Below, piece after piece: positions 5,979-27,959 of a stretch of 48,699 nucleotides of DNA. Numbering within the stretch: the first letter of the stretch is position 1; each line of letters begins with the position of its first letter. The notes beneath the pieces were generated by a model. The model had not been told where the DNA came from. It saw only the letters and a list, made by a program, of their open reading frames with translations, and searched no databases. The position numbers and the translations under genes were made by a program. This DNA comes from a virus. The stretch is from positions 1-48,699 of IMG/VR virus record IMGVR_UViG_3300021559_000015. One strand, written 5' to 3'.

Positions 5979-6149
5979 TTACGCGGGTCTAAAGTGAGGG
6001 CGATGCCCCAGGAACGAACTACAGGTACGGCCATAGAGCCGGATGTCCCGTTCGGTCATCTTCTGGTATTCGGTCTTCTTCGTCTTCGGATGTTTTAAAG
6101 CTTTCGGTGGTGGCCCCCAGCGCCATCCCTTGCCGAAATTTTCCCACAT
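5979..6149 (-). CDS. 56-residue basic protein, last gene of the late unit
   Basis: ATG 6149 overlaps the stop of the secreted-protein gene upstream (TAATG). The sequence MWENFGKGWRWGPPPKALKH and the following KTKKTEYQKM is basic and Trp/Pro-rich. No family is recognised. It precedes the terminator. No independent ribosome-binding site is seen, so coupling to the upstream gene is assumed. Confidence 0.55.
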   Translation of the reverse strand: MWENFGKGWRWGPPPKALKHPKTKKTEYQKMTERDIRLYGRTCSSFLGHRPHFRPA

Positions 6150-6637
6150 TAGGGTGTCGCGGTTGGGAACCCAGAGAACTTATACGATAGGGCTCCGCCA
6201 GCGCCTAGATGGTTTCCCGTAGAAGCGACGTACCTGACAAACCCCTGTACCTGTAGGTTAGCGATCTGGCTCAAGCCAGGGATGTACTTGGCGAAGTCGG
6301 CACCCGCCCCGACATAGGGCTGGACGTTAGGCGTTTGAGCCTGCCATTCGCCTACCGCTCCCACGTAGCCGTTTAAGTCCTTAAAGAGCGTGATGAGGGA
6401 CGATGAAGCCCCTGCGATCATCTGCTTCTTAAGGAAGTCGTAACCGACCAAGGGAAGGATGTCTGAGGCCGTAGACGGTATTTGAACAGTTCCGATCCCG
6501 CCTGGGATGTTCCATTGTAGGGCTTGCGGAGTTACGGCAGTCGTACCCTGGCCCAGAACCACATCAGCCCAGCACGTCAAAAGAGGGGATGTGACTGTGC
6601 AGAAAGCGAACGACAAGAGCATGATTAACTTTTTCAT
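6149..6637 (-). CDS. secreted protein with Sec signal peptide
   Basis: This is a 162-residue protein. The N-terminus MKKLIMLLSFAFCTVTSPLL ends near TCWA, a good signal-peptidase I site around residue 24. The mature part is Gly/Ala-rich with alternating hydrophobics toward the end (LQVQGFVRYVAS, GALSYKFSGF), which could form beta strands as in small outer-membrane or fibre proteins. GGAG lies 10 nt before the ATG. It sits at the end of the late unit beside holin-like and DUF5675 genes. Its function is unknown. Confidence 0.7.
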   Translation of the reverse strand: MKKLIMLLSFAFCTVTSPLLTCWADVVLGQGTTAVTPQALQWNIPGGIGTVQIPSTASDILPLVGYDFLKKQMIAGASSSLITLFKDLNGYVGAVGEWQAQTPNVQPYVGAGADFAKYIPGLSQIANLQVQGFVRYVASTGNHLGAGGALSYKFSGFPTATP

Positions 6638-6921
6638 TTAGGGGGTTCTCCTTGCGGTTGGGATACCGCGTTAATGGCGTTGGTTCCATGATACTGCAAC
6701 AACTTCACAACCCCTGCAATCACTGCGGGAAGTCCTGCGATCGCTGCCACTGACAATTCATTCCAGTAGATGGTGGTTGTATGTGCGGCTGCGTCAGAAA
6801 CAATGCCCCAGTGACTGAGCATCCCGTTTTTGGTTAAAAGCCAACCCGCAATACCGAGAATCGCTCCTCGTACCGCTGAAGGCCCGAACTGCGTTAGTCC
6901 TACTTTTTCAAGCCAGTCCAT
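6634..6921 (-). CDS. holin-like small membrane protein
   Basis: I choose ATG 6921 because the perfect ribosome-binding sequence AAGGAGGATCAAATC precedes it; the longer frame to 6990 has none. The 95-residue protein has two hydrophobic segments: AVRGAILGIAGWLLT (about residues 17-31) and AAIAGLPAVIAGVVKLLQY (about 60-78), with a short polar C-terminus. Length and topology suit a class II holin, and lysis-type genes often end late units. No sequence family was recognised, so the call rests on topology and position. Confidence 0.5.
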   Translation of the reverse strand: MDWLEKVGLTQFGPSAVRGAILGIAGWLLTKNGMLSHWGIVSDAAAHTTTIYWNELSVAAIAGLPAVIAGVVKLLQYHGTNAINAVSQPQGEPPK

Positions 6922-6934
6922 GATTTGATCCTCC

Positions 6935-7866: not shown

Positions 7867-7871
7867 CGGAA

Positions 7872-8153: not shown

Positions 8154-8431
8154 GGATCGTCCGGATACTTATTCCCTAATATTTTTCTGAAAGCGCGTTC
8201 ATTGGACTTAATGTTATGTTGAACGGAATCGGCTAACGTGGTCATGACACGCGTGTTATTATCCAATGCCGAACTCATCTTGGGTATTTCAGTTAAAGCA
8301 ATGTATCCCATGTAAATAGCCACTGCAATAGGGAATCCAACCTCTTTAATGAAAACAATCATCCATCGCAGTAATGATGGAATATCATCGAGTCGTTGTC
8401 TGCCATGAAGGTCGCTATTCATACCGTTCAT
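8150..8431 (-). CDS. small single-span membrane protein (holin candidate)
   Basis: This is a 93-residue protein (90 if ATG 8422 is used). One hydrophobic helix (VGFPIAVAIYMGYIALTEI, about residues 32-50) follows an amphipathic N-terminus. The C-terminus is a polar helix ending in NKYPDDP. This layout recalls phage holins of about 90 residues with one or two segments. The gene start overlaps the stop of the fibre-type gene upstream. It pairs with 7872-8153 as two consecutive membrane proteins. Confidence 0.55.
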   Translation of the reverse strand: MNGMNSDLHGRQRLDDIPSLLRWMIVFIKEVGFPIAVAIYMGYIALTEIPKMSSALDNNTRVMTTLADSVQHNIKSNERAFRKILGNKYPDDP

Positions 8432-9143
8432 ATTTCATCGTCTGACTTGCACCACCGGTAACAGCAGCTACAGACGGTTCTATCGCCATAGCACAATAAA
8501 CAGGTTGAGCGAAACTGGAGGCCGTATAGGTCATGTTGGTCGTTCCTATGCCAACAGGTCCCTGAGTAGACCCCGCTGCTTTTCCTGCTCCAATGCCTCC
8601 CTGACTAGCCCATTGAAGTGTGCCACTACCCGACGTAAGGACATTTCCCGCATTATTTAATGCTGAATCACTTAATAAGTCATTGTTAACGGTCGTTGTT
8701 AAGCCCACTGTTATTGTCGTTCCACCCGATCCAGCTACGCTACAATTAGCTACGTCTACGGGAGTCGTTGTATTCACACCTGAAAAACATTTTGCACCTG
8801 CTGCTTTGTTGGCTCCTGCTTGAACGAATGTAATAGATACTGTATTGGCTCCAGCCGCTGGGTTAGTTAAGTAATAAATCCCTGTATAAGTAGGCCCGCC
8901 TGTATCTATTGTTTCTGTACTCTTTGTTAAAGCTACGCCATTATAAGTAGAACCTGTCACCCTAAACCCAGACTCATTGATGGCATCTACTTCCAGAAGA
9001 TTTCCCCCTTGGCAATTGATGGTGAATGTCATCACGCTCGTAGCATTGGCATCAGCCGCCCATGTCTGCGAGCTAACGGTTATCGCTCCCCATCCTGACG
9101 AACAAAAGGTCATAAATCCAATGAAGGCGATCAGGCGTTTCAT
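8415..9143 (-). CDS. secreted beta-sandwich (fibre/appendage-type) protein
   Basis: This is a 242-residue protein. MKRLIAFIGFMTFCSSGWGA is a signal peptide with a likely cut after GWGA at residue 20. The mature part is Thr/Ser/Gly-rich beta sequence with YNGVALTKSTETIDTG, YYLTNPAAGANTVSITFVQA and AKCFSGVNTTTPVDVANC. It resembles the beta-sandwich domains seen in phage appendage and bacterial surface proteins. Cys pairs could form disulphides, consistent with export. No strong ribosome-binding site is visible. Confidence 0.65.
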   Translation of the reverse strand: MKRLIAFIGFMTFCSSGWGAITVSSQTWAADANATSVMTFTINCQGGNLLEVDAINESGFRVTGSTYNGVALTKSTETIDTGGPTYTGIYYLTNPAAGANTVSITFVQAGANKAAGAKCFSGVNTTTPVDVANCSVAGSGGTTITVGLTTTVNNDLLSDSALNNAGNVLTSGSGTLQWASQGGIGAGKAAGSTQGPVGIGTTNMTYTASSFAQPVYCAMAIEPSVAAVTGGASQTMKYERYE

Positions 9144-9167
9144 GGTGTCATTTAAAAGTTCATTATC

Positions 9168-10823
9168 CTATGGACTAATTGCAGTAACTTCAGCCCAGTC
9201 AAAATCAATAGTAAAAACGCCACCTGTCACCGTAGTTCCGTTACCATCTACACCCGTTGCCAAACTTACGGCTACACATTCCTTAACACCATTCAACACA
9301 ATGGGTTTGGTTCTCCACCACGCTGGACTTTCATAGAAATCGCTTGATGAACTTTGTGCGGCATTAGCACATTCCACGCCCTGAGAACCAAGTTGTCCTA
9401 CTAATCCTCCGCGTGTGGTATTTCCAGTATAAACGTAAGTAGCGGTGGTGGAGTTCGCGGAGAAGTTGGAGTTGGAAGCCACTACCGTCATGGTGCTCAC
9501 AATGTTCCCTGCGTTAGCTCCTGGTTGATCGGCATTAGAGCGCTTCAAGAACGAAACATGAACTATTCCAGCCGTTGTCTCTATACAACTCACGCGGATA
9601 TGAGTGAGAAGAGTCGCTGTCGTTGCCTGTCCGCATATCTGGGCGATGTCTGTAGCTAATGCCACAACTTGCGTGGCACTCGATGCATGGAAATCGGCAG
9701 GACGTAGCGATGGAAGATTAGCCGTCCAGAGCAATCCGTCAGTCCCCGAATTAAGTGCCGCGTTCCGTCCTTGTGTGGCGGCAGTTCCATTTTCATAAGT
9801 GTTCTGAATTATCGATGGCAACGTCGGCAACCGATCTTGTCCAGCGGCCACGCCATTATCCGCTTTAGCTCCCGTTACCGTCACACTCCCTACGGCAATA
9901 ATGTAGAAAGGATTCGTTGGGGTTCCTGACGATAGTTGTAGAGATAATGGAATGGTTACGTTAAACGGATTTGCGGGTGTTCCTGATGAAAGTTGCAGGG
10001 ACAACGGTATCGTCACATTGAAGGGATTAGCAGGGGTTCCAGAAGATAACTGGAGCGACAAAGGCACTTGAACAAAGAACGGGTTGGCGGGTGTTCCAGA
10101 GGATAATTGAAGGGCTAACGGGTCATGGACATTAACATTATTTCCTGTCAAAGGGCCAACAATACTAACAGGAACTGAAGAACCACCATTCTGATACCCT
10201 ACTGCTGTAATTACCCCTGCTGTATTTTGGACAGCTATAGCGTCTGCTGTACTGATAATAAGTATCGGAGAAGTTCCTTGAACTATTGTGAAACTCCCGA
10301 CACCTGCCACATTAAGAGTAGAAGATGCAAGTTGAATCCCTGGATTAACTGTCACAAACCAATTCCCCTGTTGACTTGCCGCCACTGTTGAACCATTGGT
10401 ATTCCAAGACGAAAGTTGGACGTAAAAGGGGTTGGTCGACGTACCTGATGACAATTGAAGTGAAAGCGGAATCACCACATTAAACGGATTGGCGGGTGTG
10501 CCGGAACTTAATTGAATGGATAGCGGAACATTGACATTAAAAGTAGCAGAAGCTAGTTGAACCCCTGGCCCGATCACCGTTACCGGAACACCCCCGTTTG
10601 TTAAAGAGCTTGAAGCCAGATGAACCGTTAGACCCGTCACAGGGTCAACTTGAGCAACGCCTGTAACGGAGTAGGTATCTCCAATCACTACCGTTTGACG
10701 CATGTTACCGTTTGAAAGAAGTTGCCCGTCAATCGCCAAAAAACTACCAGAGGATACAACCAGTGATGTATCTCCCGCCCATGCTGTAGTTACCAAGAAC
10801 AAAAGAGCTAATATTTTTTTCAT
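9168..10823 (-). CDS. secreted repeat-containing fibre protein
   Basis: I choose ATG 10823 (AGGAG 10 nt upstream), which begins the signal peptide MKKILALLFLVTTAWA; the longer frame to 10847 lacks this support. The 551-residue protein carries at least seven copies of a roughly 20-residue repeat around SLQLSSGTPANPFNV between about residues 90 and 290, as expected for a repetitive beta fibre shaft. The C-terminal 250 residues are non-repetitive (IRVSCIETTAGIVHVSFLKR) and may be a head or receptor-binding domain. It belongs to the fibre block. Confidence 0.75.
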   Translation of the reverse strand: MKKILALLFLVTTAWAGDTSLVVSSGSFLAIDGQLLSNGNMRQTVVIGDTYSVTGVAQVDPVTGLTVHLASSSLTNGGVPVTVIGPGVQLASATFNVNVPLSIQLSSGTPANPFNVVIPLSLQLSSGTSTNPFYVQLSSWNTNGSTVAASQQGNWFVTVNPGIQLASSTLNVAGVGSFTIVQGTSPILIISTADAIAVQNTAGVITAVGYQNGGSSVPVSIVGPLTGNNVNVHDPLALQLSSGTPANPFFVQVPLSLQLSSGTPANPFNVTIPLSLQLSSGTPANPFNVTIPLSLQLSSGTPTNPFYIIAVGSVTVTGAKADNGVAAGQDRLPTLPSIIQNTYENGTAATQGRNAALNSGTDGLLWTANLPSLRPADFHASSATQVVALATDIAQICGQATTATLLTHIRVSCIETTAGIVHVSFLKRSNADQPGANAGNIVSTMTVVASNSNFSANSTTATYVYTGNTTRGGLVGQLGSQGVECANAAQSSSSDFYESPAWWRTKPIVLNGVKECVAVSLATGVDGNGTTVTGGVFTIDFDWAEVTAISP

Positions 10824-11157: not shown

Positions 11158-11464
11158 CTGACACCTGCACGTTGGCGTTGGAATTGATGATAAAAGCCGC
11201 CCCTGGAGCCGTCACGAACCACGGTTCCCCTGAAGCGTCGAACGTCAGACCTTCGTTCGCCGCAAAGGGAACGGCTGCGGGACTCGGTTGCGCGTCCACG
11301 AAAGTCAGGTTAACGGCAGCCCCTACCAAGAACCATATCCGATGAACGTAAATCTTCCGGTTCTGAGCATCAGCGGGAACGATAATATTGTTACCCGACG
11401 CACTGAAATTAATAACACCTCGCGTTAGGATATTGATTCTCCCTGCTAAAAGGAGATTAGGCAT
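11126..11464 (-). CDS. beta-rich virion-type protein
   Basis: I choose ATG 11464, which overlaps the stop of the glycosidase-like gene (TAATG). The 112-residue product (MPNLLLAGRINILTRGVINF) is almost all beta strand, with VPADAQNRKIYVHRIWFLVG and AAFIINSNANVQVSGGIGYL. It resembles small jelly-roll decoration or appendage proteins of phages. It has no signal peptide, in contrast to most neighbours. No family name is given. Confidence 0.6.
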   Translation of the reverse strand: MPNLLLAGRINILTRGVINFSASGNNIIVPADAQNRKIYVHRIWFLVGAAVNLTFVDAQPSPAAVPFAANEGLTFDASGEPWFVTAPGAAFIINSNANVQVSGGIGYLLSAL

Positions 11465-13614
11465 TAGCGATAACTCCCGACTCCTTGCATCTTGATAGCT
11501 CCCCGCCATTGTTCGGTAGTTTGATTTAGCGAAAAATTAGCTATTACTTGGAGTAAAGCTTCTCTGGCGACTTCGTAGGCGTTACGATCTTGCGACCAAG
11601 GCCGAGGCCCGAACGAATAGGTGCAATCTGAAAGAGTAAAACATTGCCTCAAATACATGACATCACTAACGACGTTGTTCATAATCGCCGTTGTTGAAGA
11701 AGGATTGATCGCATTAGCCATTTTAAGCAAGTCTGTATCTTGGATCCCACGGGTAAGCATATTTAACTGCCATGTTCCCACGACCCCGTTAAAGCTATAC
11801 ACTGGCGAATAGCCTGTAGACACGGTGTCTGTGGAATTAAATAGCATGACACCCGCTCCATTATCGAAATGGAATCCCGTATGACCCTTGACGGTATCGG
11901 TGGTAGGAAATGAATCGTATCCGAATGTTTTTGAAATACCGTACATATTATTATCGTTATTGGAATTGGCGTTGTATCCATTCTGGGCCTGACCCGCATT
12001 ATTGGAGTCCTGCCAGTAGTTTGTTTCCCATAAGAACCACATCGCTTGGTTTGTCTTATAAGCACCCCAAAGAGGTTCCCTAGAACCCAGGCCGTCTTCC
12101 TGATTGTCTAAGATCGAATCCACTCCTATACTGGAATTGTAACCACCCGCTGTGTGCGTAGAGGAGTTTTGATACAACGATTCAAGAGTTGTCCACGTTG
12201 TTGTCGGAGCATTAAGCCAACTCGTTGTCAGAACCGTATTGACATTCGGAGCATTAGAATAGACTTCGGGAAGTTGTCCAGTTTGTAGGTAAGGGGTACG
12301 ATTAGACCCATTTGCACATGTTGGAGCTGTAGAAGCCCATGTGGATAATGTATTTACTTCACCTGCTAAAATGGCATTGGAGGCTTCATCGTCAGCCGTA
12401 TAAAGCTGACAATTCAACCCGTTCGTCGCACAGTAAGCGGTCCATGAACTTAGGTTCGTACAAAAACCATTCGCACCATCAGTCAAAGTTTTACTCCATG
12501 TTGCTCCAACCCATCCACCGTATGTTCCAATCACATAAAGTTTGTCTCCTTGACCATATCCTGGACTCGTATTAGGAGAGAGGCCGTAGGTTTCCTTGTA
12601 GGCAGAGCCGTCAATGTGTTTTTGGTATTCAATGGAAGGGTAATCCTGCCCTGCCGTCGTAGGATCACCAATGGCTATGACTTTATGACGGTGCAGAAAA
12701 GCAGCAGCGCGTAGATGAGCCGTTAAATAAGGATCTGAAAAATCGTTAGCTGGATTACGTTGACCCGTTAAACGCATGTCCAAATCTTTGTAACCAAGAT
12801 CACCAATTACAGGCAATAAAGCTGTTCCTGGAAGCGTAACATTGTAAACCAAAAGTTGAACAGGGATCGAAGTTGAAATCGATGTTCCTTCCCATACAGT
12901 CTCCGTGGCCGTATAAGTCCCCGCAGGAAGCGACGTTGAAATATAAACCTCTCCCCCAATGGCTTGTGATGAAGACGCAAACACGGTAAAGCTGGAATTG
13001 GCAGGTCCTGTGAATTCTTCCATTGGAACTGCTGGGACAGGGTAAAACTTGTTGGAATCTGACCTATTCAAGAACGTCGTTCCACCGTTAGGAACGGCAT
13101 CATTGTTTCCGTTGACCGTATAGGGTCGTCGCCATCGTAGAGGCAGTTGGTATTGATCGTACTCTGTGGGATCCCATGCCGTTCCTACTTCCGACATACC
13201 GATCACTTGAACATAGCCGTACTTATACAGGCTATAGGGCCTTTGCGAGTAATCCCAAGCATTAACACTGGATACAATGACCGCAGAAAACCCTGAACCT
13301 AACGCAGAGCCTGTTCCTGTAAAGCTTGAGAGCGTGACCATGACATTATTTGCGTTCCCCGCTTGACTGGCATTTAAGTAAGTCACCCATGTTAAAAGTT
13401 CGCCTTTTCCACCGAAGAGTTTGATATTGGTTCCATCCCATATTCGACTGATGGTATTGCTCGAAAAACCTAGCGGGTATTGATCTTGTTGGGACATTTT
13501 CCATCCACCATCTTCGACCCATGTAGCACTTGAAATGAGATTGCCTGAATAGACGATAGAAGGAGTTAAAACAAATATAAAAATAGGAAAGATAACGTAT
13601 TTATTTACAACCAC
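11464..13614 (-). CDS. secreted glycosidase-like tail protein (DUF4091-like C-terminus)
   Basis: This is a 716-residue protein from GTG 13614 with signal peptide MVVNKYVIFPIFIFVLTPSI up to VYS. Residues 25-260 are beta domains. Residues 270-640 look like a (beta/alpha) barrel with QLYTADDEASNAI (an acidic pair where a catalytic Glu/Asp could be), SILDNQEDG and QAMWFLWETNYWQD. The region around LNMLTRGIQDTDLLKMA and the end GPRPWSQDRNAYEVAREALL match the DUF4091-type pattern found in glycosyl-hydrolase-like proteins. I infer a surface-polysaccharide depolymerase or spike. Catalytic residues are not proven. Confidence 0.6.
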   Translation of the reverse strand: MVVNKYVIFPIFIFVLTPSIVYSGNLISSATWVEDGGWKMSQQDQYPLGFSSNTISRIWDGTNIKLFGGKGELLTWVTYLNASQAGNANNVMVTLSSFTGTGSALGSGFSAVIVSSVNAWDYSQRPYSLYKYGYVQVIGMSEVGTAWDPTEYDQYQLPLRWRRPYTVNGNNDAVPNGGTTFLNRSDSNKFYPVPAVPMEEFTGPANSSFTVFASSSQAIGGEVYISTSLPAGTYTATETVWEGTSISTSIPVQLLVYNVTLPGTALLPVIGDLGYKDLDMRLTGQRNPANDFSDPYLTAHLRAAAFLHRHKVIAIGDPTTAGQDYPSIEYQKHIDGSAYKETYGLSPNTSPGYGQGDKLYVIGTYGGWVGATWSKTLTDGANGFCTNLSSWTAYCATNGLNCQLYTADDEASNAILAGEVNTLSTWASTAPTCANGSNRTPYLQTGQLPEVYSNAPNVNTVLTTSWLNAPTTTWTTLESLYQNSSTHTAGGYNSSIGVDSILDNQEDGLGSREPLWGAYKTNQAMWFLWETNYWQDSNNAGQAQNGYNANSNNDNNMYGISKTFGYDSFPTTDTVKGHTGFHFDNGAGVMLFNSTDTVSTGYSPVYSFNGVVGTWQLNMLTRGIQDTDLLKMANAINPSSTTAIMNNVVSDVMYLRQCFTLSDCTYSFGPRPWSQDRNAYEVAREALLQVIANFSLNQTTEQWRGAIKMQGVGSYR

Positions 13615-15631
13615 TTCCGAATCCTTCGCAGTTATAATAGAGAAGTCCTGACCCGACCGTTGAACTGAAGCTGAATGTCACAGCGGTTGGACTGATCGCT
13701 GAGACATCTCCCGTCGCTGTCGTTGCATTGTCAGATTCAGTACATACCACATTACATCCGACACCATAACTCGTTGCAAAGTTCAACGTGCAAGCTGTGG
13801 TTACACCGGTTCCGACGGTGATAACACCTAGATGATCGTTTCCAATAACACTGGGTGTTCCTCCTCCACAGGAAGAAACGGAAGGAACCGTGCCGCTAGA
13901 AATAATATGACCATTGGTAGAAATTCCGACTTGGAACGAACTGGCTGATGTCGCAATAAGGAGGGACCAATTATTCGCGGAATTACCTAAAATACCGACC
14001 TGTGCATTGGCGGGTCCTACTTCGTTAATACCTATATTTCCACCTGTTTCAATACGAAGTCTGTCCGTATCGGATGTCTCAAGTTTAATCGGTACAGCAT
14101 TATCTACATCCAGTCGCCAGTAGTTTCCTGCACTAAAGATCATATCGCCTAAAAAACTCCCTGCATCTGTATACCAGCCAATCGCGCGATTGGTGCCGCC
14201 ACTATTCCAAAAATCGAGTTCTCCTCCAACTCCTCCCACTGTACGGAGAGTCATTGAAGATGCAGCAATACTGGTTGTAAATGAACTTGGTAATACGTTC
14301 GTCCAACTATTCTGACCCGTCCAGATGTTGTTGCCAGCGAGCGTCGGACCCCCACCTCCTCCACAAGACACGGAATTGACTTCTCCTGTAGCTGTCCATC
14401 CCGCGCATTGGCCTGGCGTGATCGGTGTAGTGGAAATGATGATTGTTCCTGTGGAGGTGTTGTTTGCTACTTCCGATAAAAGATGCGTTCCATTATCAGC
14501 ATAAAGAACATCTACACCTGACCCCACAATCGTTAAGGAAGTAGACGTTCCTTCCGTCAGACCGATTTGACCCGCACCTACGCCATTCACCGTCGCACTG
14601 GTTACTGCTAAGTAAACAATAGTAGAGATTTGAGGACCGTTGAAATTGGCATAGTTTGCCGTCACACTGGTCGCAATTACACCGTTAATAAACGTAGCGT
14701 TCTCACTAGGCCATGCCAATTCCAAAATTCCTTGTCCGGCTGTAGCTTCTTGCGCTCCAAATCTCATTGTTGCCTGATTTCCCATCATGCCAATGAAACC
14801 ACGTTGACCACCACCGCCCGTTTCAAAAGTAATGAGATTATCCTGAGAACCCGAAAACTGGTCGTTCAAATGAAGTACGGATGGTTGATTGGGATTATTG
14901 ATCGTGAGTTGTCCATTGAGTGACTGGCTGGAAGTTATTAAGGTTGTAATAGTCGCTGTCGTTGCTGTAATGGAATTGAAGGGAACGGTTCCGTTCTGGT
15001 TGATCTTAAGTGTCGCTGTAGAACCCGCCACAAAAGCCACGGTTAAAGTGACGGTGTCTACGTTAATAACAGACGTAGGGCTTGAAACGATAATGCCATT
15101 GGCGATCACAGCCAGCGAAGAACCACCACCGCCTCCTGAATTGCAGAGAGCGCCGGCACTTACCAGTTGCCCCGAGGAATTGGTTTGAACACATTGGAGT
15201 CCGCTTAAGTTCGTTAATTGTAGGGGACCCGTAATGGAAACGGCATTGGCAGACCCTGCGGGGAATATGGTAACGGTGTTGCTAGCAAAGGTAGCAGATG
15301 AAGCTGAGAAACCCAGAGGAAAAGAAGCCGTGGCTGTGGCAGGATAGACGCCGCCACTTCCTAATCCGCAAGCAAACCCCGCCGAGGCCAACTGACCCGT
15401 TCCGTTCACGGTGACGCATTGACCATTATTTAAACTCAAGTCCACGACTTGGGGTGCGGTCATGGTTCCAGCCAACGTCTCATTGCCTGAGTAATCTAGG
15501 TTGTAAATATACTTCGTCCCATTGGGACCGTTGGTATAGGCTATGGCAGAGGTCGCGGGATTCACTACAACAGCAGCGTGAGCGCAGGCCGTGAGTGCTA
15601 AAACTCCAAATACAACTCGGATAGTTTTCAT
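13601..15631 (-). CDS. large secreted tail-fibre protein
   Basis: This is a 676-residue protein. The signal peptide MKTIRVVFGVLALTACAHAA follows GAGGTCTTT just upstream. The chain is Ser/Thr/Val/Gly-rich beta sequence with Gly-rich linkers (CGGGGG, NSGGGGGSS) that separate modules. The last 100 residues (GNDHLGVITVGTGVTTACTL ... CNVVCTESDN ... GLLYYNCEG) resemble a C-terminal domain common on metagenomic fibre proteins, probably a trimer cap with disulphides. Paired cysteines again fit an exported protein. Its end overlaps the next gene by 14 bp. Confidence 0.75.
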   Translation of the reverse strand: MKTIRVVFGVLALTACAHAAVVVNPATSAIAYTNGPNGTKYIYNLDYSGNETLAGTMTAPQVVDLSLNNGQCVTVNGTGQLASAGFACGLGSGGVYPATATASFPLGFSASSATFASNTVTIFPAGSANAVSITGPLQLTNLSGLQCVQTNSSGQLVSAGALCNSGGGGGSSLAVIANGIIVSSPTSVINVDTVTLTVAFVAGSTATLKINQNGTVPFNSITATTATITTLITSSQSLNGQLTINNPNQPSVLHLNDQFSGSQDNLITFETGGGGQRGFIGMMGNQATMRFGAQEATAGQGILELAWPSENATFINGVIATSVTANYANFNGPQISTIVYLAVTSATVNGVGAGQIGLTEGTSTSLTIVGSGVDVLYADNGTHLLSEVANNTSTGTIIISTTPITPGQCAGWTATGEVNSVSCGGGGGPTLAGNNIWTGQNSWTNVLPSSFTTSIAASSMTLRTVGGVGGELDFWNSGGTNRAIGWYTDAGSFLGDMIFSAGNYWRLDVDNAVPIKLETSDTDRLRIETGGNIGINEVGPANAQVGILGNSANNWSLLIATSASSFQVGISTNGHIISSGTVPSVSSCGGGTPSVIGNDHLGVITVGTGVTTACTLNFATSYGVGCNVVCTESDNATTATGDVSAISPTAVTFSFSSTVGSGLLYYNCEGFGSGCK

Positions 15632-15641: not shown

Positions 15642-16118
15642 TCACTTAAGAGCCTTCCATGTTCGATAATGAATTATTTTATGAATAGCTGCCCTTTTAA
15701 CTCCAAAATGGTTAGCTAATTTTATTGCTGATAATACTGGATGAAAATTTCTAATATCTTTAACATTATCTTCCGTTAGTGCAACGTTGGGATTTCTAAT
15801 TCCCTTTGCATCATAACGACGACCTTTTCGTTTGCAATCTTGCTGATTATCAAAGTCTGTCCCAAGAAACAGATGAGACGGTCTTACGCAAGGAGGGTTA
15901 TCGCAGTGATGAAGAACATCTAAACCAGGAGGAATAGGGCCAATATATAATTCATAGGAAACACGATGTGCACGTTTAACTTTCCAAGATTTCCAGTTTT
16001 TACCTGCTACACCAAAAGAACCATATCCCTGTGGTAACTTAGATCCTGTCCAAAGCCAACATTCACGGCTCTTTTCTATATGTCTTTCAAAACGTGATTT
16101 CGTATCTAAAATACGCAT
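15642..16118 (-). CDS. HNH homing endonuclease (HNH_3 type)
   Basis: I choose ATG 16118, which overlaps the stop of the gene upstream (TAATG); a longer frame to 16139 also exists. The 158-residue protein has CWLWTGSKLPQGYGSF, the core AHRVSYELYIGPIPPGLDVL followed by HHCDNPPCVRPSHLFLGT, and a C-terminal helix-turn-helix (AIKLANHFGVKRAAIHKII). It sits exactly between a secreted-protein gene and the large fibre gene and is AT-richer than both, as expected for a mobile endonuclease gene. Confidence 0.9.
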   Translation of the reverse strand: MRILDTKSRFERHIEKSRECWLWTGSKLPQGYGSFGVAGKNWKSWKVKRAHRVSYELYIGPIPPGLDVLHHCDNPPCVRPSHLFLGTDFDNQQDCKRKGRRYDAKGIRNPNVALTEDNVKDIRNFHPVLSAIKLANHFGVKRAAIHKIIHYRTWKALK

Positions 16119-16717
16119 TATATTGGGTCCTCCCTCCATAAGACGTGTGCAATGATCGCCGCGGCCGAAGTCGATTGAATAGAAATGGTCCCGCCTGGAG
16201 GTACTACAACCTTGCCTTGAGTCAAGTCCGTCATTACCACGCCACTAATTGCTGCTGCTCCAGTGGTTCCACCCAAATACCTAAACGCTATGGGAACACT
16301 GGGAATCGTGGCGGCACGATAACATAGGCCCGTACTTGCTGTAACAGGGTTGGTTGACGTTACGTTGATATAGGCGCTGGTGGTTTGAGCGGGAGTCGTT
16401 GTTGTGGGAGCGCCAGCCGCCGTAGAATAAGCCAACATGAACTGCGCCGCTGCCGCGGGAGCCGCTGTAATATCAATACCCACGTCCAACAACACCAGGT
16501 TCTTTCCTGACCCATAGGGATTGTAGAGCGTTAAAGCGGGGTTTAAGGGAGATAGTCCCGCCGCCGTTGTGACGGCTGTCCCCGCCAGATCGTTGCAATA
16601 GTATTCGCTGTTGGCGTCTTTGGAATAATCGTTGGCACTTGTCGATCCCCAGAACGCCCAGGAATTGGAATAAAAGAATAAGCAAAAGGTTAAAATTGAG
16701 AGTTTCTTAACGGTCAT
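16118..16717 (-). CDS. secreted beta-rich structural-type protein
   Basis: This is a 199-residue protein. The signal peptide MTVKKLSILTFCLFFYSNSW ends near AFWG, and AGGAGG lies 7 nt before the ATG. The mature part begins with a polar, Cys-containing stretch (NSEYYCNDLAGTAV) and continues as beta sandwich (KNLVLLDVGIDITAAPAAAA, KVVVPPGGTISIQSTSAAAI, VLWRED). The last strands look like a small neck or tail-accessory fold. It overlaps the PurD-like gene by 4 bp, so the two are translated together. Confidence 0.65.
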   Translation of the reverse strand: MTVKKLSILTFCLFFYSNSWAFWGSTSANDYSKDANSEYYCNDLAGTAVTTAAGLSPLNPALTLYNPYGSGKNLVLLDVGIDITAAPAAAAQFMLAYSTAAGAPTTTTPAQTTSAYINVTSTNPVTASTGLCYRAATIPSVPIAFRYLGGTTGAAAISGVVMTDLTQGKVVVPPGGTISIQSTSAAAIIAHVLWREDPI

Positions 16718-18060: not shown

Positions 18061-20924
18061 TGCATGACCGCCTTTTTCTCTTTGGAATAGATATTTCGCA
18101 AAGCAATGTTTCTTAGAAGCGATACGTCGTATCCATTTTCAATGCCAAATTTAATTGCCTTATCCAAGGACTTTGTGTCGCCTTTTTCAATGCCATCCTG
18201 CAGCATCTGGATCACCTGGGTTTTACTGATTCCTTTAGATAAGGGAAATGTCATAGCTAAGTTATTTTCCCCTAACGAAAAAGGTGTCAAGTTTCGCTTT
18301 AGAAATTGTCCTACTCCTTTTTTGTTTTCTGGGATATTGAACCCCGAAAGCGTTCTATCTCCATGTTGAAGGATTTCAGCCATCATCTGAATCGCTGGAG
18401 CCGCCTTGGATCCCAGGGTCTGCATGGGATGTTGGAACCATCCCACAACTTCTACCAAGGATTTCCCTGCCATCATGTAGACATTGCGTCCAGAATCATC
18501 TTTCTTCCAGAACACATGAAATTCTTTACCAGGATCGTTTTCCCATAGAAAACGTCCCTTCCCTAGATACTTTTGGGTGTTGATGTAGTTCATGACGTTA
18601 GCGCCCGTGTAATAGGCTAATCCAGATTTAAGCCAGAACTTCCGCGCTTGATAGCCTTCTGGTCCTCCCTTAAATGCCGCTCCAACGGTCTGAAGTCGGG
18701 TCAACGTCCAATCTGGAGCCAAGAACGCCCACTGTAAAGCTTGCCTGTACTTAGGCGAGTACATCATGCTTTCTAAAGCCCCGCCCGAGGCCTTATTCAC
18801 AAACCCTGCCGTTTCCTGCTTAATCTGTTCCATCGGCATCTTGTCGCCAAATTTGAGGATGTTTTCGGCCAAATGATCCTGATACATCTGGAGCTTGATG
18901 CCGGCGTGATAGTAGTCCCAAAGCGATTTATCCCAAATCTGGTTGAAAGTCCTCAAGCCTTTAACAACTTTCCCTGCAATGGAAACCCGTTTATTCAGTC
19001 CGTCTTCTACCTCCGTTAAAGCCTTAACGACTTTACCGCGCTGTACATCTCCAATAGATCCGACTTGAAGTCCGTGTTCTACGGCGTCACGAGCCAATGG
19101 GATATTGGCGAAATTGGCGTGGCCTTCCATAAATGATTTATAAAGCGCACCAGGAAGTTCCTTAAGGCCATCCCACTCCGCTCCCTTATAAATGGTGGAG
19201 GCTTGGTCACGAAGAACCTTTAAGGGATTTGTCCCGCCTCCAATAGCGGTTTCTGTTAGAGAAAAATGGTGAAAGAAAGAAACTGAGAGCCGGACTTTCT
19301 TGGCAATGGCGTTAAGATATTCGTAGCCATTGACAATGGAATGGAACGCCTTTTGCGATAGCGGAGCGTTGGGTCCTGGCTCCGCAAAGGCAAAAGGCTT
19401 GTCCACAATCGCCCGTACCGCGTCAAAGACTTCAGGGCTTACTTTCACCCCATTAAAAAACGGACTATCCACATACTTCCAGTCGGCAGGAGCCTCAGAT
19501 AGGGGGAGAACAGCCTTACGCCCTCCCTCTACCTGGATATTTTCAAGAGCATCACGAAACCGCATGTTCGCTACAGTTTTAATCTTGTAGTTGTCGTAGG
19601 CTTTAAGAAGTTCCGAAACGTCCAAGGTCTTAGGCGTAAACCCCGCATCAATCCCCTCCGCATAAGATCCGATCACCCGCTCTTTAGTAAAAGGGTTCTT
19701 GGTGCTTAGACTTGTAGCTCCAGGACCATAGGTGGAAGTCTTGGGATTGCGTTCCCAGAGATGGTTGATGTAGTTCTCGTGATAACCAATTTCATCAAAA
19801 TGCTCTTTTAAGAAGGCATGACCTTCATCCAAGTAGGGTCCTATTTTATCGTAGGCATCCTTTAAATTCTTGAAGATTGAGGCATTGGGCTCCTGCTTGT
19901 ACCGTTGAACCGTATCAAGAATCTCTTTGGCTTGGGGATGAATGAACTTCTCTGGGTCTGGCGTTTTTCCTTCGATAATAAATGGGAGCGCCTGTTTCTC
20001 AATATCCGTCAGGCGCCCTGTAGCGTCTCTGATAAACAGACGGCTATCAAAGTACCCCACGCCGATTTCACCGTACCTTCGTTTAAACAAATTCTTGGCC
20101 GTGGAGGAAGCCTCTGTAGGAGAAGCCGTCCAATACTGCCATGCTTTCTGAAGCATATTGAGTTGTGCCACTGGATCACCACGAGCAGCGGCATCCTGGG
20201 CCTTCAGTGAAGATGTTTCTATGGGAGGCGAAAGGTTAACAGCCTGCTGAACCACCTTCTTATCAAAGCCAGTATCTTGAGCAATTTCGCTCACCGTCTT
20301 TCCTTCAGCGGCGTGATCTGCGATCGTTGTCATCACTTCAACAGGTTTCCCTCCAAGCGCCACATTTTCAGAAGGCTTTAAGAGCCATCCCAAAAACGAC
20401 CCCGCGGCCTTAAACGCAACATGTAGTACGGCTCCGCCTACTGCACCTTCTACCGCTGCAATACCTTCCTGCTTAGGGTTAACGGTCCCGCGGTTGGCCA
20501 CATCTTCAATCACTTGTTGACCACCCATAGCCGTAGCACCGGCCATAACGGACTTAACCAGTGGGGCAACTTTCATAGAAGAACCGATTTCTCCCAAGGC
20601 CAGAAACCGAGGATCCAAGAACTCCGCGGCGCCAGCGCCGAGTTTCTCGCCAGATTGTGGCTTGTATCCTGGTTCGGTCGCCGCGGCAGCGCGACTAACA
20701 GCCTCCTCTGTACGACCCTTTAACGTCGGTTCTTGACCCGTAAACATTCTTTCTACACCCACTCCAATACCTTTAAGACCCCGTTCTGGAACGCCCGTGG
20801 CTTGAGCGACACGTTGTAGAGTAGACGGGCCTTGAGGCGGCCCCAAATCCGCCATCTTAGATGGCGCAGGACCTAAATCCTTAAATTTAGAATCTTCCGG
20901 CCCCAGATCAGAAAAATCAGCCAT
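18057..20924 (-). CDS. large internal-virion/injection-type protein
   Basis: This is a 955-residue protein with no signal peptide. The N-terminus carries three short repeats (SDLGPEDSK, KDLGPAPSK, ADLGPPQ). A Gly/Ala-rich hydrophobic region follows at about residues 120-200. The rest is helical and hydrophilic, with a coiled-coil-rich middle and many aromatic residues near the C-terminus. Size, position after the two smaller helical genes, and lack of catalytic motifs fit podoviral internal core or ejection proteins. It is translationally coupled to the PurD-like gene. No enzyme domain was recognised. Confidence 0.55.
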   Translation of the reverse strand: MADFSDLGPEDSKFKDLGPAPSKMADLGPPQGPSTLQRVAQATGVPERGLKGIGVGVERMFTGQEPTLKGRTEEAVSRAAAATEPGYKPQSGEKLGAGAAEFLDPRFLALGEIGSSMKVAPLVKSVMAGATAMGGQQVIEDVANRGTVNPKQEGIAAVEGAVGGAVLHVAFKAAGSFLGWLLKPSENVALGGKPVEVMTTIADHAAEGKTVSEIAQDTGFDKKVVQQAVNLSPPIETSSLKAQDAAARGDPVAQLNMLQKAWQYWTASPTEASSTAKNLFKRRYGEIGVGYFDSRLFIRDATGRLTDIEKQALPFIIEGKTPDPEKFIHPQAKEILDTVQRYKQEPNASIFKNLKDAYDKIGPYLDEGHAFLKEHFDEIGYHENYINHLWERNPKTSTYGPGATSLSTKNPFTKERVIGSYAEGIDAGFTPKTLDVSELLKAYDNYKIKTVANMRFRDALENIQVEGGRKAVLPLSEAPADWKYVDSPFFNGVKVSPEVFDAVRAIVDKPFAFAEPGPNAPLSQKAFHSIVNGYEYLNAIAKKVRLSVSFFHHFSLTETAIGGGTNPLKVLRDQASTIYKGAEWDGLKELPGALYKSFMEGHANFANIPLARDAVEHGLQVGSIGDVQRGKVVKALTEVEDGLNKRVSIAGKVVKGLRTFNQIWDKSLWDYYHAGIKLQMYQDHLAENILKFGDKMPMEQIKQETAGFVNKASGGALESMMYSPKYRQALQWAFLAPDWTLTRLQTVGAAFKGGPEGYQARKFWLKSGLAYYTGANVMNYINTQKYLGKGRFLWENDPGKEFHVFWKKDDSGRNVYMMAGKSLVEVVGWFQHPMQTLGSKAAPAIQMMAEILQHGDRTLSGFNIPENKKGVGQFLKRNLTPFSLGENNLAMTFPLSKGISKTQVIQMLQDGIEKGDTKSLDKAIKFGIENGYDVSLLRNIALRNIYSKEKKAVMQ

Positions 20925-21763
20925 TATGGATTAGCCACCACTTTCACACTCGCATCACGTTTCTGCGCTTCTTCTAAGTTCTTTTTGTAAATTTGATGTG
21001 TTTGGCCCGTAGAATCAGTGATAGTGATTACTGAATTTTCGTCCCCCACACCCTGCAACTTATCGAAACGCTGTTTGTTCTGTTGCAAGAACATCTGTTT
21101 ATCCTGAAGTTCCTTAGCCTTGGTCGGATCAGTCTTAGCCATCTGAGACAAAAGAACGCTGTTAAAACCCTTCAAATCATTTCCGTATTGACGATAGGTC
21201 TTTATAAATTCTTTATCTTGAGGCGCTTCTGCGGTTCCACCTTTAGTAGAAGGTGTTGATTTTAACGACTTCTTGGCTTTATCTTCAGCATCTTGGCGTT
21301 CTTTCTTCGCCTTATTCGCCGTATCTTCCCTATCTTTCTTCGCCTTGTCTTCCGCTGCCTGACGATCGGCTTTTGCTTTGTCTTCTTGATCCTGCTTGTA
21401 TTGAGCGGCTTGGTCCTTCAGTTTCTCAATGTCTTCTTTTCCACTGATAATATCCTGTTGGTAAGCCTTCTTGGATTGAAGTCCCACCATCGCCGTAAAG
21501 ATGCGGGGATCCCACTTTGTACCCGCCGTTCGAGACCAACCGTCATCACCCGTTAATTTAGCTATCCCATTAGCCATCTCAGGGGTAATGGTGATCTTAT
21601 CCAACTGCTTCTCAGTAACGTCCTTAGCGATATCAGCAATCGGAGCATTGGCGTTTTGGATTGCTTCTTGCGTCAATGCCTGTTTCTTCTGCGCAACTTC
21701 TTGCGTCCTTGCCGTTGCGTCTGAGGCCACTCCGAGTAATTGCGGTGACTGGTCAAATGCCAT
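20924..21763 (-). CDS. coiled-coil protein, probable internal virion component
   Basis: This is a 279-residue protein with no signal peptide. Residues 105-170 are a long charged helix with a repeating DKAKKDRE/DTANKAKKERQ pattern (at least four copies of a roughly 10-residue Lys/Asp/Ala unit), probably a rod-like coiled coil. The C-terminus is polar (ITITDSTGQTHQIYKKNLEE). It lies between the 355- and 955-residue candidates and the three probably form an ejection-protein set. Function is inferred from context. Confidence 0.55.
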   Translation of the reverse strand: MAFDQSPQLLGVASDATARTQEVAQKKQALTQEAIQNANAPIADIAKDVTEKQLDKITITPEMANGIAKLTGDDGWSRTAGTKWDPRIFTAMVGLQSKKAYQQDIISGKEDIEKLKDQAAQYKQDQEDKAKADRQAAEDKAKKDREDTANKAKKERQDAEDKAKKSLKSTPSTKGGTAEAPQDKEFIKTYRQYGNDLKGFNSVLLSQMAKTDPTKAKELQDKQMFLQQNKQRFDKLQGVGDENSVITITDSTGQTHQIYKKNLEEAQKRDASVKVVANP

Positions 21764-21772
21764 AAATTCTCC

Positions 21773-22840
21773 TTAAAATAAAGACTCGTTCCCAGCGTTA
21801 GGTGCAAAAGTCCCAAGGCTCTGATTCAGTCCTCCCGTAAAATTCACATTAGCGCCTGCACCTGATGCACCCGTAGAACCCAATTGGCGTTGTGCCGCCA
21901 GGTATCCACCTAAAAGAAGCGGGTTAGAGGCTGATGACCCGAACGTAGCCCCAGCGGGAGACCCTGTTATGGCGGACGCTGCCGAACCTCCCAAAGAAGC
22001 CCCTAGGGAAGCTCCTAGCATCGGATTACCTAAGAAAGACCCTCCTATACCCCCTACAACGGCTCCCAGACCCGTTCCCAGAGCCCCTTCCCATCCCCCA
22101 CCACCCGTTGATTGGCTCATCTGCTTAAGAAGTGCCTGTTGAGCTAAGGATTGTGAAACCGATTGACCTGGAAGGTTTGCTATGTCGGTGGCCGCCCCAT
22201 AGTTCTGTCCCGCAGACTGATTCGCTAATCCCAAGAACTGAGGTGCAAGTCCTAGTTGCTGGGCTCCCCGACCCGCTTGCTGTGAAGCCAATAGTTGTTG
22301 CTGCTGTTGACCAATGCTGAGTCCCTGATTGACAATGTTCTGCTGATACTGCGTCTGAGCTTGAGCCATCGCCTGAGCTTCCAGGCTTGAACCCGCAAGC
22401 CCACGACTCGCTGCCTGACCCGTCACTTGACCTAACCCATAGTTAAATTGGTTTTGAAGCGGAGCCAAGTAACTACTGACCTGATCGGGTGTCATGGACC
22501 CAAACAACTTCGGAGCCGCTTCTAGCGTCGCTTGGGCTGCGTCGTAGGAAGCGTTGCCTGCGGCTGTGGCAGCAGAGGCCGCACCCGTCTCCGCGGTCAA
22601 GTTGCCTTGAATTAGGCTCTGGGCGCCAGCGATCTGTTGATGGGCTTGGACGTAAGAAGCTACAGCAGAGGTACCTGTCTGACCAACGTTAGTGCGACCT
22701 TCAAATGCAGGAGCGAGCGCATCTATTTCACTTTGGCTCGGCGTGTAGCCCATGCTTTCAAAGATAGCCTGAATATCAAAATTAGGCGCACCGCCTGTAG
22801 GGTCGGTAATACTTCCCGTCGATTGATCGGTTGCTGCCAT
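21773..22840 (-). CDS. Gln/Ala/Gly-rich internal virion-type protein with glycine-zipper segment
   Basis: This is a 355-residue protein with no signal peptide. Residues 60-240 are Ala/Gln-rich helix (AQAMAQAQTQYQQNIVNQGL). Residues 250-300 form a glycine-zipper-like hydrophobic stretch (LGAVVGGIGGSFLGNPMLGA followed by SLGASLGGSAASAI), the kind that inserts into membranes. Podoviral ejection proteins often combine such features to build a trans-envelope channel. The pattern is suggestive but not diagnostic. Confidence 0.55.
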   Translation of the reverse strand: MAATDQSTGSITDPTGGAPNFDIQAIFESMGYTPSQSEIDALAPAFEGRTNVGQTGTSAVASYVQAHQQIAGAQSLIQGNLTAETGAASAATAAGNASYDAAQATLEAAPKLFGSMTPDQVSSYLAPLQNQFNYGLGQVTGQAASRGLAGSSLEAQAMAQAQTQYQQNIVNQGLSIGQQQQQLLASQQAGRGAQQLGLAPQFLGLANQSAGQNYGAATDIANLPGQSVSQSLAQQALLKQMSQSTGGGGWEGALGTGLGAVVGGIGGSFLGNPMLGASLGASLGGSAASAITGSPAGATFGSSASNPLLLGGYLAAQRQLGSTGASGAGANVNFTGGLNQSLGTFAPNAGNESLF

Positions 22841-22850: not shown

Positions 22851-23159
22851 CTAGTTTATGATTGTCCAACCACCACTGGTAACGGTACTGGTTGAAATAT
22901 AAATCTTGGATGTAGTCGTACTCACGTAAATATCACCGATTTTAATGGGTGTCGTCGTAGGGGCCCCTGCTCCCGTAAAAATAGTGGGCTTGGCTGAAAT
23001 CGCCTGATAACTGTTCTGAAACTCACGTTCAATCGCAGGGTCCTTATGCGGAACCACGACGTTTAAATTGTTTGAGGCGCTGAAGGCATAGTATTCACAA
23101 AGGATGCAAAAGAGAATAAAGAGGACAACGAAGAGGGTCCTGTTGATGCGGAACTTCAT
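22851..23159 (-). CDS. signal-peptide-bearing small fibre/collar protein
   Basis: This is a 102-residue protein starting at the TAATG overlap with the nozzle-like gene. A long hydrophobic N-terminus (RTLFVVLFILFCILCEYYAF) is followed by a mature part that ends in PIKIGDIYVSTTTSKIYIST and GGWTIIN. This GDIYVdT-type ending is common at the tips of phage fibre and collar proteins. The hydrophobic stretch might be an uncleaved anchor. Confidence 0.6.
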   Translation of the reverse strand: MKFRINRTLFVVLFILFCILCEYYAFSASNNLNVVVPHKDPAIEREFQNSYQAISAKPTIFTGAGAPTTTPIKIGDIYVSTTTSKIYISTSTVTSGGWTIIN

Positions 23160-25931: not shown

Positions 25932-25939
25932 GCTATAAT
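25932..25939 (+). promoter_or_regulatory. extended -10 promoter for the plus-strand HNH gene
   Basis: TGCTATAAT contains TATAAT (25934-25939) with the TGn extension, which can act without a good -35; no TTGACA is found 16-18 nt upstream. The ATG of the HNH gene begins 6 nt after the hexamer, so a leaderless mRNA is predicted. No ribosome-binding site is present. Confidence 0.5.
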
Positions 25940-25945
25940 TTGTTC

Positions 25946-26566
25946 ATGAAAAAATGCCTTCTGTGTAATAACGTGGTAAAAAGAAAAAAGAATAAATACT
26001 GCTCCAAGTCTTGCCGTTATAAATCCGCTTTTGAAATAAAGAAATGCAAAACATGTAACCGACAATACAGGATAAATACATTCGGAAGAAAAAGTTCTAT
26101 GCTCTACTGCTCTATTACATGCACCCAGAGAAGACCTTGTATCTTTTGTGGCCATATAATCACTGGAAGAAATGTTTACAACGGAAGGCCAAGACGTTTT
26201 TGCAGTGCGAAATGTTTCAACACTTTGCTTTCCATACGAAAAGTAAAAGACAATTACCTTACAAAGGGATTTTATGATTGCCTTAAACGCCACGGGAAAA
26301 TCCTTTGCGAATCTTGTAAATCGGAAGATAGAAGAAGTCTTATCGTCCATCATCCTGATGGAAGAAAAAATGGGAACTCCACACTGAAAGTCCTTTGTGC
26401 TAACTGTCATATGATCCATCATCACGAAAAACGTCCCACAATGGAAAAATATATGCAAACTTCAAAATTCATTTTCCTCTCGAAAATTAAAGATCCGTAT
26501 TCTCTTTCTTCAGAAGAAATAAATAATTTATTGCTCAAGGAGAACCAAGACCCCCTTGACCAGTAG
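25946..26566 (+). CDS. HNH endonuclease with several zinc knuckles, opposite in strand to its surroundings
   Basis: This is a 206-residue protein from ATG 25946; a TTG at 25940 is a less likely start. Four CxxC clusters (KKCLLCNN, YCSKSC, KKCKTCNR, RPCIFCGH) precede the HNH core RRSLIVHHPDGRKNG with VLCANCHMIHHH. It reads against the 36-kb leftward block and lies exactly between the adaptor-like and nozzle-like genes, overlapping the adaptor 3' end by 32 bp. It is AT-rich. A homing endonuclease with its own promoter is the best explanation. Confidence 0.88.
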   Translation: MKKCLLCNNVVKRKKNKYCSKSCRYKSAFEIKKCKTCNRQYRINTFGRKSSMLYCSITCTQRRPCIFCGHIITGRNVYNGRPRRFCSAKCFNTLLSIRKVKDNYLTKGFYDCLKRHGKILCESCKSEDRRSLIVHHPDGRKNGNSTLKVLCANCHMIHHHEKRPTMEKYMQTSKFIFLSKIKDPYSLSSEEINNLLLKENQDPLDQ

Positions 26567-27335
26567 GGTTTCCGCTGCGTAAGGCTCCAGCGGGAGGGTT
26601 GAAGTCGGGCTGGCGGTTAAGTCCCTGTCGCATAATCAGCAAGAAATTAACCCAGTAATTCAGGTAGTCCTTAGCTATATCGGTTTCTTCTAAAGTCGAA
26701 TAGGCGCGGTACGCCATGTAGTAAGGAAGAGCCGAAACATAGGGCTGTAGAAAATATCTTCCATTAAAAGGCATCGCTGATTCATTGGCTACGGTCAAAT
26801 CCACGGTACTTTGAACATAATAAATAATCACTGGACCTGTAGAAGAAGTTATCGGACTGGGGTAGAATCCCATCGCAATAGGCGTGTTAACTCCAGGCGG
26901 TACGTTTTGACCCATATCCACAAAGTAAGAAATAGGAACACCCTGAACTTGCGTCCAACCAGGCGTCCTCGCATCCAAGTCATCTAAACTGGTAGCGGGT
27001 AATTTAGTGAAGGGTTGTCCAGGTTGTTGATACCAGACACGAATGGGAAAGAGAAAATCAGTAGGCATGTTGAACTCAAACAGGCTTGGAGGCGTCGGAA
27101 CAAGATTCAGTTGAAAACTGGTCTGTAACAACCAGTTCTGAGCGTTGGCTTCCCTCTGCCCGTCAGAAGCCCAGGCAAGGTATTGGGCATCTGAGAACTG
27201 CTGGCGGTTGGATTGCGAGGCGGAGTCTTTGACGAGGGTACGTGCGCGAGCGATTAAATCCGACGTTAATAAAACAGCCTGAGCAGAAGAACCTGCCCAT
27301 AAAATACAGAGCGCAATAAGGAGTCGCTTATGCAC
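26535..27335 (-). CDS. head-tail adaptor-like protein with signal peptide
   Basis: This is a 266-residue protein from GTG 27335, with AAGGAG 4 nt upstream. MHKRLLIALCILWAGSSAQA is a signal peptide. The mature part matches the pattern of podoviral adaptor/tail-tubular-A proteins: LIARARTLVKDSASQSNRQQ, FSDAQYLAWASDGQREANAQ, MPTDFLFPIRVWYQQPGQPF, LDDLDARTPGW and a final helical region with YMAYRAYSTLEETDIAKDYL. Adaptors normally dock on the portal in the cytoplasm, so a signal peptide here is unexpected. The family match is by sequence pattern. Confidence 0.65.
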   Translation of the reverse strand: MHKRLLIALCILWAGSSAQAVLLTSDLIARARTLVKDSASQSNRQQFSDAQYLAWASDGQREANAQNWLLQTSFQLNLVPTPPSLFEFNMPTDFLFPIRVWYQQPGQPFTKLPATSLDDLDARTPGWTQVQGVPISYFVDMGQNVPPGVNTPIAMGFYPSPITSSTGPVIIYYVQSTVDLTVANESAMPFNGRYFLQPYVSALPYYMAYRAYSTLEETDIAKDYLNYWVNFLLIMRQGLNRQPDFNPPAGALRSGNPTGQGGLGSP

Positions 27336-27350
27336 CGGTCTCCTTATAAT

Positions 27351-27959
27351 CTAGTTATTTCCGTAGCTTATTTCTTTCCACTCACCAATCACAGCATCAT
27401 AAATAAGGCTTAACGTTCTACCCCATTGTACGACCCGTGTCGCAGCGCCTAAGTCCATACCCGCAGCCGTGCCACTGGAGAACGTAACGGTTGAAAGCGT
27501 AGACGTACAAGTAATAATTAGATACTGTCCATTAGTCGCCGTCGCCGTAGCGATACAGGGGATAGCCGCGTTCGAAGGAAGCATCGGTGTGGCAGCCCCG
27601 CAAATAACCGTCGTTCCACTCACTCCCGCTGTCGAAAGAACCTGAAGGTAAGTAGCCGCCGGAGAAATAACGGTGATGCTCGAAACACCTGTGACTATTT
27701 GAGGCGGATAAACAGTGATGCCGGAGAATGTATCTGTTCCTGTCACGCTCAAGTTCCCGCCGAAAGAAGATACCGTAGAAGTTCCAGGGCTTCCGGTGGA
27801 GGTGATGTTTCCGTTCACATCCACCTTGAAGGGACAGGTCTTCTGGTTCGGTCCCGTGCAGTAATCGACGAGATCCGTAACACCCGCTGATTTTGCGACC
27901 ATGACAAACCCTAACAGGAACATCAAAACAATGCCTGTTAAGCGTGAAATGTTCTTCAT
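27351..27959 (-). CDS. secreted head/tail fibre-type protein
   Basis: This is a 202-residue protein. AGGAGG lies 6 nt before ATG 27959, which begins the signal peptide RLTGIVLMFLLGFVMVAKSA. The mature N-terminus has two Cys (VDYCTGPNQKTCPFKVDVNG). The C-terminal domain (TVTFSSGTAAGMDLGAATRV, then WGRTLSLIYDAVIGEWKEIS) follows a pattern common at the ends of phage fibre proteins. It lies between the adaptor gene and a helical gene near the capsid. A role as a head or neck fibre is plausible. Confidence 0.65.
   Translation of the reverse strand: MKNISRLTGIVLMFLLGFVMVAKSAGVTDLVDYCTGPNQKTCPFKVDVNGNITSTGSPGTSTVSSFGGNLSVTGTDTFSGITVYPPQIVTGVSSITVISPAATYLQVLSTAGVSGTTVICGAATPMLPSNAAIPCIATATATNGQYLIITCTSTLSTVTFSSGTAAGMDLGAATRVVQWGRTLSLIYDAVIGEWKEISYGNN

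Follow-up and report, generated by a model that had tools for sequence, protein, structure and literature searches.

Signal peptides divide the virion proteins of an uncultured podovirus

We analysed a single IMG/VR virus record (IMGVR_UViG_3300021559_000015; 48,699 bases, hereafter the window), which is a short-tailed double-stranded DNA phage and a member of an uncultured podovirus clade. The proteins on the tail side of its virion, including the head-tail adaptor and a nozzle-like protein, begin with Sec-type signal peptides that are real, conserved and selectively kept, and whose boundary within the virion runs between portal and adaptor. A previous reading of the letters alone (the sequence-only reading) had named ten such genes, had seen no signals on the head and internal-type genes, and had proposed either a separate compartment for tail assembly or a decoration of the cell envelope.

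N-termini were scored by rules on the charge of the n-region, the uncharged hydrophobic core and the small residues at -3/-1, and the scorer was calibrated on 109 Escherichia coli K-12 genes from three genome stretches. All 26 exported E. coli proteins scored at least 10.1 and none of the 57 cytosolic ones reached 10 (maximum 9.8); 4 of 26 integral membrane proteins scored at least 10. The ten minus-strand starts are all present as the sequence-only reading had described them, and their N-termini score 10.2-14.2 and fit the Sec/signal peptidase I type, having a charged n-region, a hydrophobic core and small residues at -3/-1 (Table 1). Its observation on the head and internal-type genes was borne out as well: with the same scorer, the products of the terminase, portal, scaffold and capsid genes and the 255-, 166-, 955-, 279- and 355-residue products all score 7.1 or less and have no signal. 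Ribosome-binding sites, likewise noted before at several signal starts, lie at the starts of the adaptor, the nozzle and the 202-residue protein, and a weaker one at that of the 102-residue protein. Among the six-frame open reading frames of at least 60 residues in the window, 21 of 170 score at least 10, with the true signal genes counted in. No 19-residue segment with a mean hydropathy above 1.6 was found in the mature exported-type proteins of the block.

A true start beyond the hydrophobic stretch would have undone the prediction, and such starts were also sought. The first 50 codons of the window adaptor and nozzle contain no other ATG, GTG or TTG, and therefore a signal-less version cannot be made from such a start; a start-site artefact is ruled out for these two genes.

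Conservation of the signals across the clade

When the adaptor, capsid, nozzle and portal served as queries, all close relatives that turned up were IMG/VR contigs, and INPHARED contained no DNA-level relatives of the stretch from the nozzle to the 202-residue gene. Nine lineages (the window, G001-G007 and L024) were scored jointly, taking the adaptor, nozzle, 202-like and 102-like genes as the tail side. Signals occur on 30 of the 32 tail-side genes and on none of the 71 head or internal genes, a split with a Fisher value of 6e-24, which overstates independence because the sequences are related. The two tail-side genes scoring below 10 are the G001 nozzle (9.6) and the G002 202-like gene (3.1), the latter with an Asp inside the core. 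Three genes stand outside this count. The signal is readable in the 102-like genes of G006, which has an ATA start, and of G007, which starts MRWLWLILVPSIALA; in the G007 nozzle the hydrophobic leader immediately precedes the first standard start. This leader (L014 4100-4400) shows either an in-frame TAA after two codons or a CTG start, a sequencing error or a real loss.

In a tenth lineage, L070, found with the nozzle profile after the pattern had been set, the adaptor, the nozzle and the 202-like gene all carry signals. Over the ten lineages, the adaptor has a signal in every one, and the nozzle signal is clear in eight and probable in the remaining two. With the window included, the 202-like gene has a signal by score in eight of the nine lineages scored, and the 102-like gene in all six members scored. 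Orthologues of the 199-residue protein in G001, G002 and G003 also have a signal though the gene there lies upstream of the terminase.

Between lineages, the signal sequences are mostly 20-40% identical and the mature parts 27-67%, and the signal type is retained in 26 of 28 comparisons, with small residues at -1/-3 in nearly all orthologues. In a drift simulation, random substitution to equal distance retains a signal in 2-4% of cases on average, or, with stop codons left out, in 7-26% at a nucleotide identity of 50-60%. Signals missing from homologues, named in the sequence-only reading as a possible refutation, are thus not what the comparison returned. The E. coli calibration, the homologues and the drift simulation together rule out chance hydrophobic N-termini.

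The signal as an addition to an ordinary adaptor and nozzle

The adaptor matches phrog_399 (E 3.9e-10), and the alignment runs from residue 25, just past the signal, which corresponds to profile position 5; since the match begins there, the signal is read as an addition. Its AlphaFold2 model, with a predicted local distance difference test (pLDDT) value of only 64, was matched by Foldseek to a chain of the GP4 portal-tail complex (8jov, E 8.4e-7), and the solved adaptors of VP1, N4, crAss001 and SU10 match it too. The nozzle matches phrog_511 (E 4.4e-8) and, by hhalign, the 'phage stabilization protein' of MW202803 (E 3.5e-7); the label of nozzle is uncertain because the PHROG family name is 'internal virion protein', and the AlphaFold2 model (pLDDT 40) is too poor for a fold search. 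The outgroup nozzle of MW202803 begins MARNTKIAFFNDFTGGLN, where clade member G005 has a signal followed by EGEKPFIFTNFTGGLN, and for this reason the nozzle signal is likewise taken as added. As judged from these alignments, the signal is an N-terminal addition ahead of an otherwise normal adaptor or nozzle. A second or signal-less copy of either gene was found neither in the window nor in the four relatives searched, where both genes are single-copy, and a separate signal-less adaptor or nozzle acting as a stand-in is ruled out for these genomes.

Cysteine patterns

The sequence-only reading had further described paired cysteines in many of the mature parts, which is only partly borne out. 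From residue 31 on, there are 11 cysteines in the nozzle, 12 in the 676-residue protein, six in the 716-, four in the 551-, four in the 242-, two in the 199- and five in the 202-residue protein; the adaptor and the 102- and 162-residue proteins have none. In the nozzle, Cys 256 and Cys 287 are jointly lost in G005 and G007, Cys 661 and Cys 673 are jointly lost in G007, and Cys 832 and Cys 890 are both present only in G002, G003, G004 and L024. This co-variation, which comprises few independent events, fits the behaviour of disulfide partners, and the pairs would be compatible with an oxidising compartment. Across seven genomes (window 18057-22840, G001-G005 and G007), the three internal-type proteins have a single cysteine among 13,042 residues. 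Such scarcity may be tied to an oxidising compartment that these proteins cross, or act in, once ejected.

A proposed assembly route and its alternatives

We consider it probable that the tail parts leave the cytoplasm by export and are processed and oxidised beyond it, that heads are filled in the cytoplasm, and that the two are joined when the inner membrane opens at lysis. The conserved signals, their position in the gene order and the nozzle cysteine pairs agree with the separate compartment of the sequence-only reading, and from them we infer export, cleavage, disulfide formation and late joining. The tail proteins would cross the inner membrane unfolded as Sec substrates and would be cut by signal peptidase I, and the adaptor-nozzle-fibre pieces would fold in the periplasm, the nozzle with disulfides. 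Heads would meanwhile be filled in the cytoplasm, their DNA held by a closed portal valve, until a holin opens the inner membrane; filled heads and finished tails could then come together and be joined, at release or shortly before it. Filled heads that wait are plausible because the T7 portal has been proposed to close a valve that holds the DNA before tail addition, the tail assembling on the portal after packaging (PMC6702177), and heads could pass holin holes because those of lambda reach micrometre scale (PMC10865782). On the fuller picture of a two-compartment virion, in which cytoplasmic heads and complete, disulfide-bonded periplasmic tails yield infectious particles only through a breach of the inner membrane and lysis itself completes assembly, we are evenly divided.

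Several points weigh against this route. In most lineages the adaptor lacks cysteines altogether, and therefore disulfides are not the reason for its own export. In the lysis-like group (6634-8431), a DUF5675 gene accompanies small membrane proteins that are no more than candidates for the holin. The route also asks filled heads to stay tail-less up to lysis, a longer wait than in T7, and in a host with an outer membrane periplasmic tails could meet their receptors from inside. Moreover, export, cleavage and the joining site are predictions from sequence.

Other explanations of the signals were weighed against the same evidence. An inefficient leader could export the proteins only in part, much of the adaptor and nozzle assembling in the cytoplasm and the exported fraction serving another role. 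Some phage and cellular proteins are dual-located, and partial export would keep classical assembly intact; we nevertheless hold it to be unlikely, given signals that score as normal E. coli ones and have been retained by all tail-side genes together, a window adaptor and nozzle without internal starts, and a cysteine pairing that suggests an oxidising site. It is quite unlikely that the tail proteins instead stay anchored in the inner membrane, their signals uncleaved or cut late, with filled heads docking there: signals alone do not prove release and some cleavage sites are weak (nozzle ATG, 242-residue protein), but the -1/-3 residues stay small as in cleaved signals, and the mature adaptor would sit across the membrane from the portal.

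The leaders might also be structural or assembly elements that serve in the virion, for example by inserting into a membrane during entry, or that a phage protease cuts off. Export is here predicted from sequence, and in the adaptor model the signal core forms the first helix, as this explanation would have it. While the sequence drifts, however, the n-region stays positive, the core short and uncharged and the residues at -3/-1 small, and the same type of leader stands on unrelated proteins of the block, which makes it very unlikely. As for the envelope or surface decorations (adhesins, superinfection blockers or released decoys) that the sequence-only reading had offered in place of virion parts, they misfit the adaptor and nozzle because both are single-copy in each genome examined, without a signal-less stand-in. 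The adaptor also matches solved head-tail adaptors, the nozzle matches a tail stabilisation protein, and the genes follow one another as in a podovirus whose tail adaptor and stabilisation protein are annotated. Decoration would suit the 162-residue protein and perhaps some distal fibre-like genes, and the 676-residue protein has a possible lipobox; as an account of the whole set it is likewise very unlikely.

Gene order and other genes of the block

The minus strand carries, in order, the genes for terminase, portal, a scaffold-like protein, a 255-residue protein, capsid, and the 166-residue, 202-residue, adaptor, nozzle and 102-residue proteins, followed by the 355-, 279- and 955-residue internal-type proteins, a 448-residue ATP-grasp-like protein and the 199-, 676-, 716-, 551-, 242- and 162-residue proteins (Table 1). 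Markers of the podovirus type (Caudoviricetes) are present: a large terminase, a phage-type capsid, a portal, an adaptor fold, and a nozzle/stabilisation protein beside the adaptor. The window portal also matches the annotated portals of two records like MW202524.

Table 1 Features of the virion block in the window (positions of the 48,699-base stretch)
Feature	Coordinates	Strand	Signal	Score	Remarks
Terminase large subunit	36772..38514	-	none		phrog_2 E 6.9e-23
Portal	32391..34502	-		-3.8	tblastn E 5e-8 to annotated portal of MW202524
Major capsid protein	28673..29566	-	none		PF25209 E 7.7e-16; phrog_371 E 2.4e-17
166-residue conserved charged protein	27973..28473	-	none		between capsid and tail genes
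202-residue spike- or knob-like protein	27351..27959	-	27888-27959	12.4	AGGAGG ribosome-binding site
Head-tail adaptor, 266 residues	26535..27335	-	MHKRLLIALCILWAGSSAQA at 27276-27335	13.4	
Nozzle-like protein, 907 residues	23159..25882	-	MRRPLYLAPLLVALGAVCCFATG at 25814-25882	12.2	directly after adaptor gene
102-residue protein	22851..23159	-	23079-23159	14.2	directly after nozzle
355-residue internal (ejection-type) protein	21773..22840	-	none		no cysteine
279-residue internal-type protein	20924..21763	-	none		no cysteine
955-residue internal-type protein	18057..20924	-	none		no cysteine; orthologues 1006-1566 residues
199-residue protein	16118..16717	-	16655-16717	11.4	
676-residue fibre-like protein	13601..15631	-		13.2	LTAC, a possible lipobox
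716-residue distal protein	11464..13614	-	13546-13614	10.6	
551-residue repetitive fibre-like protein	9168..10823	-	10776-10823	14.2	
242-residue protein	8415..9143	-	about 9087-9143	10.2	
162-residue protein	6149..6637	-	6566-6637	10.6	beside lysis-like genes

The 202-residue protein has a weak match, under the curated cut-off, to PF25692 (depolymerase C-terminal), and the N-terminus of the 676-residue protein a weak one to the Cor lipoprotein family (phrog_1119, E 0.0095). A PDB sequence search gave no meaningful relatives of the 716- and 202-residue proteins, and neither the 716- nor the 162-residue protein has a family match in Pfam or PHROG. G002 and G004 hold signal-bearing genes weakly similar to the 242-residue gene. 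The 162-residue protein may be an envelope protein instead of a virion part.

The gap between capsid and tail genes is filled by the charged, signal-less 166-residue protein in every lineage that holds the region, and this protein could be a temporary head plug. The ATP-grasp-like gene (16714-18060; GARS, phosphoribosylglycinamide-synthetase-like, PF01071 E 1.7e-7) stays between the internal-protein and fibre genes in several relatives. Genes for HNH-like endonucleases, read from reading frames only, lie among the structural genes (15642-16139, 5095-5604, 34697-35086 and 44695-45174). Signal-bearing genes also occur outside the virion block at 44198-44698 and 46712-47020, one of them an SLT transglycosylase (PF01464 E 2.9e-8), and two small genes with lipoprotein-like signals lie at 731-1446, of which one contains a collagen-like repeat (PF01391 E 1.4e-6).

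Relation to known systems

In phages of the T7 type, the cytoplasm is where tails are both built and attached, and the tail proteins have no signal peptides, whereas every tail-side protein of the window carries a signal; by the count of 30 in 32 genes, the clade departs from the classical T7 type, in which tail proteins lack an export signal. The parts themselves are arranged as in T7 (gp11 adaptor, gp12 nozzle, gp17 fibres), with an adaptor ring on the portal, the nozzle below it and internal head proteins (PMC6702177). The capsid is ~30% identical to those of Podoviridae sp. ct2G2228 (MW202785) and Alcaligenes phage vB_Af_QDWS535 (OK172329). The adaptors of MW202785 and of Podoviridae sp. 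ct52p938 (MW202803) belong to the same PHROG family as that of the window, and MW202803 has a homologous nozzle. Gene order is broadly similar in MW202785, MW202796, MW202803 and QDWS535, but their scored structural genes lack signal-type N-termini.

Filamentous phages (Inoviridae) have Sec signal peptides on virion proteins such as pIII and pVIII and assemble at the envelope. Unlike the window phage, they have single-stranded DNA and no heads or tails and are extruded without lysis; no homology search was made with them, and the head genes of the window argue against an Inoviridae-like membrane assembly. SAR (signal-anchor-release) endolysins, spanins and Cor-type lipoproteins also take the host Sec path, but as lysis or exclusion factors and not as tail parts.

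As a route to the host through prophages, the nozzle profile was run against a genome contig collection and gave no match. The capsid profile found one Rhodospirillales metagenome-assembled genome fragment (43% capsid identity), and the 8.5 kb of it that were examined show neither an adaptor nor a nozzle that could be recognised. Searches of 289 bacterial genomes with phrog_399 and of 398 with the adaptor profile returned one weak match, which has no signal. In the titles and abstracts searched, which leave many subscription papers outside, no earlier case of tail proteins being exported in a tailed phage came to light, and in two podovirus papers found to contain the term signal peptide it occurs only in the reference lists. 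The window therefore combines an ordinary podovirus gene set with a proposed assembly route that has no earlier description as far as the literature was searchable.

Tailed phages are generally assumed to complete their virions inside the cytoplasm. If the whole tail side is exported, head-tail joining would be tied to lysis, the folding and disulfide machinery of the periplasm would be open to tails, and filled heads would be stable without a tail for much of the infection. Signal peptides on adaptor genes provide a simple genomic test that can be applied to all phage genomes.

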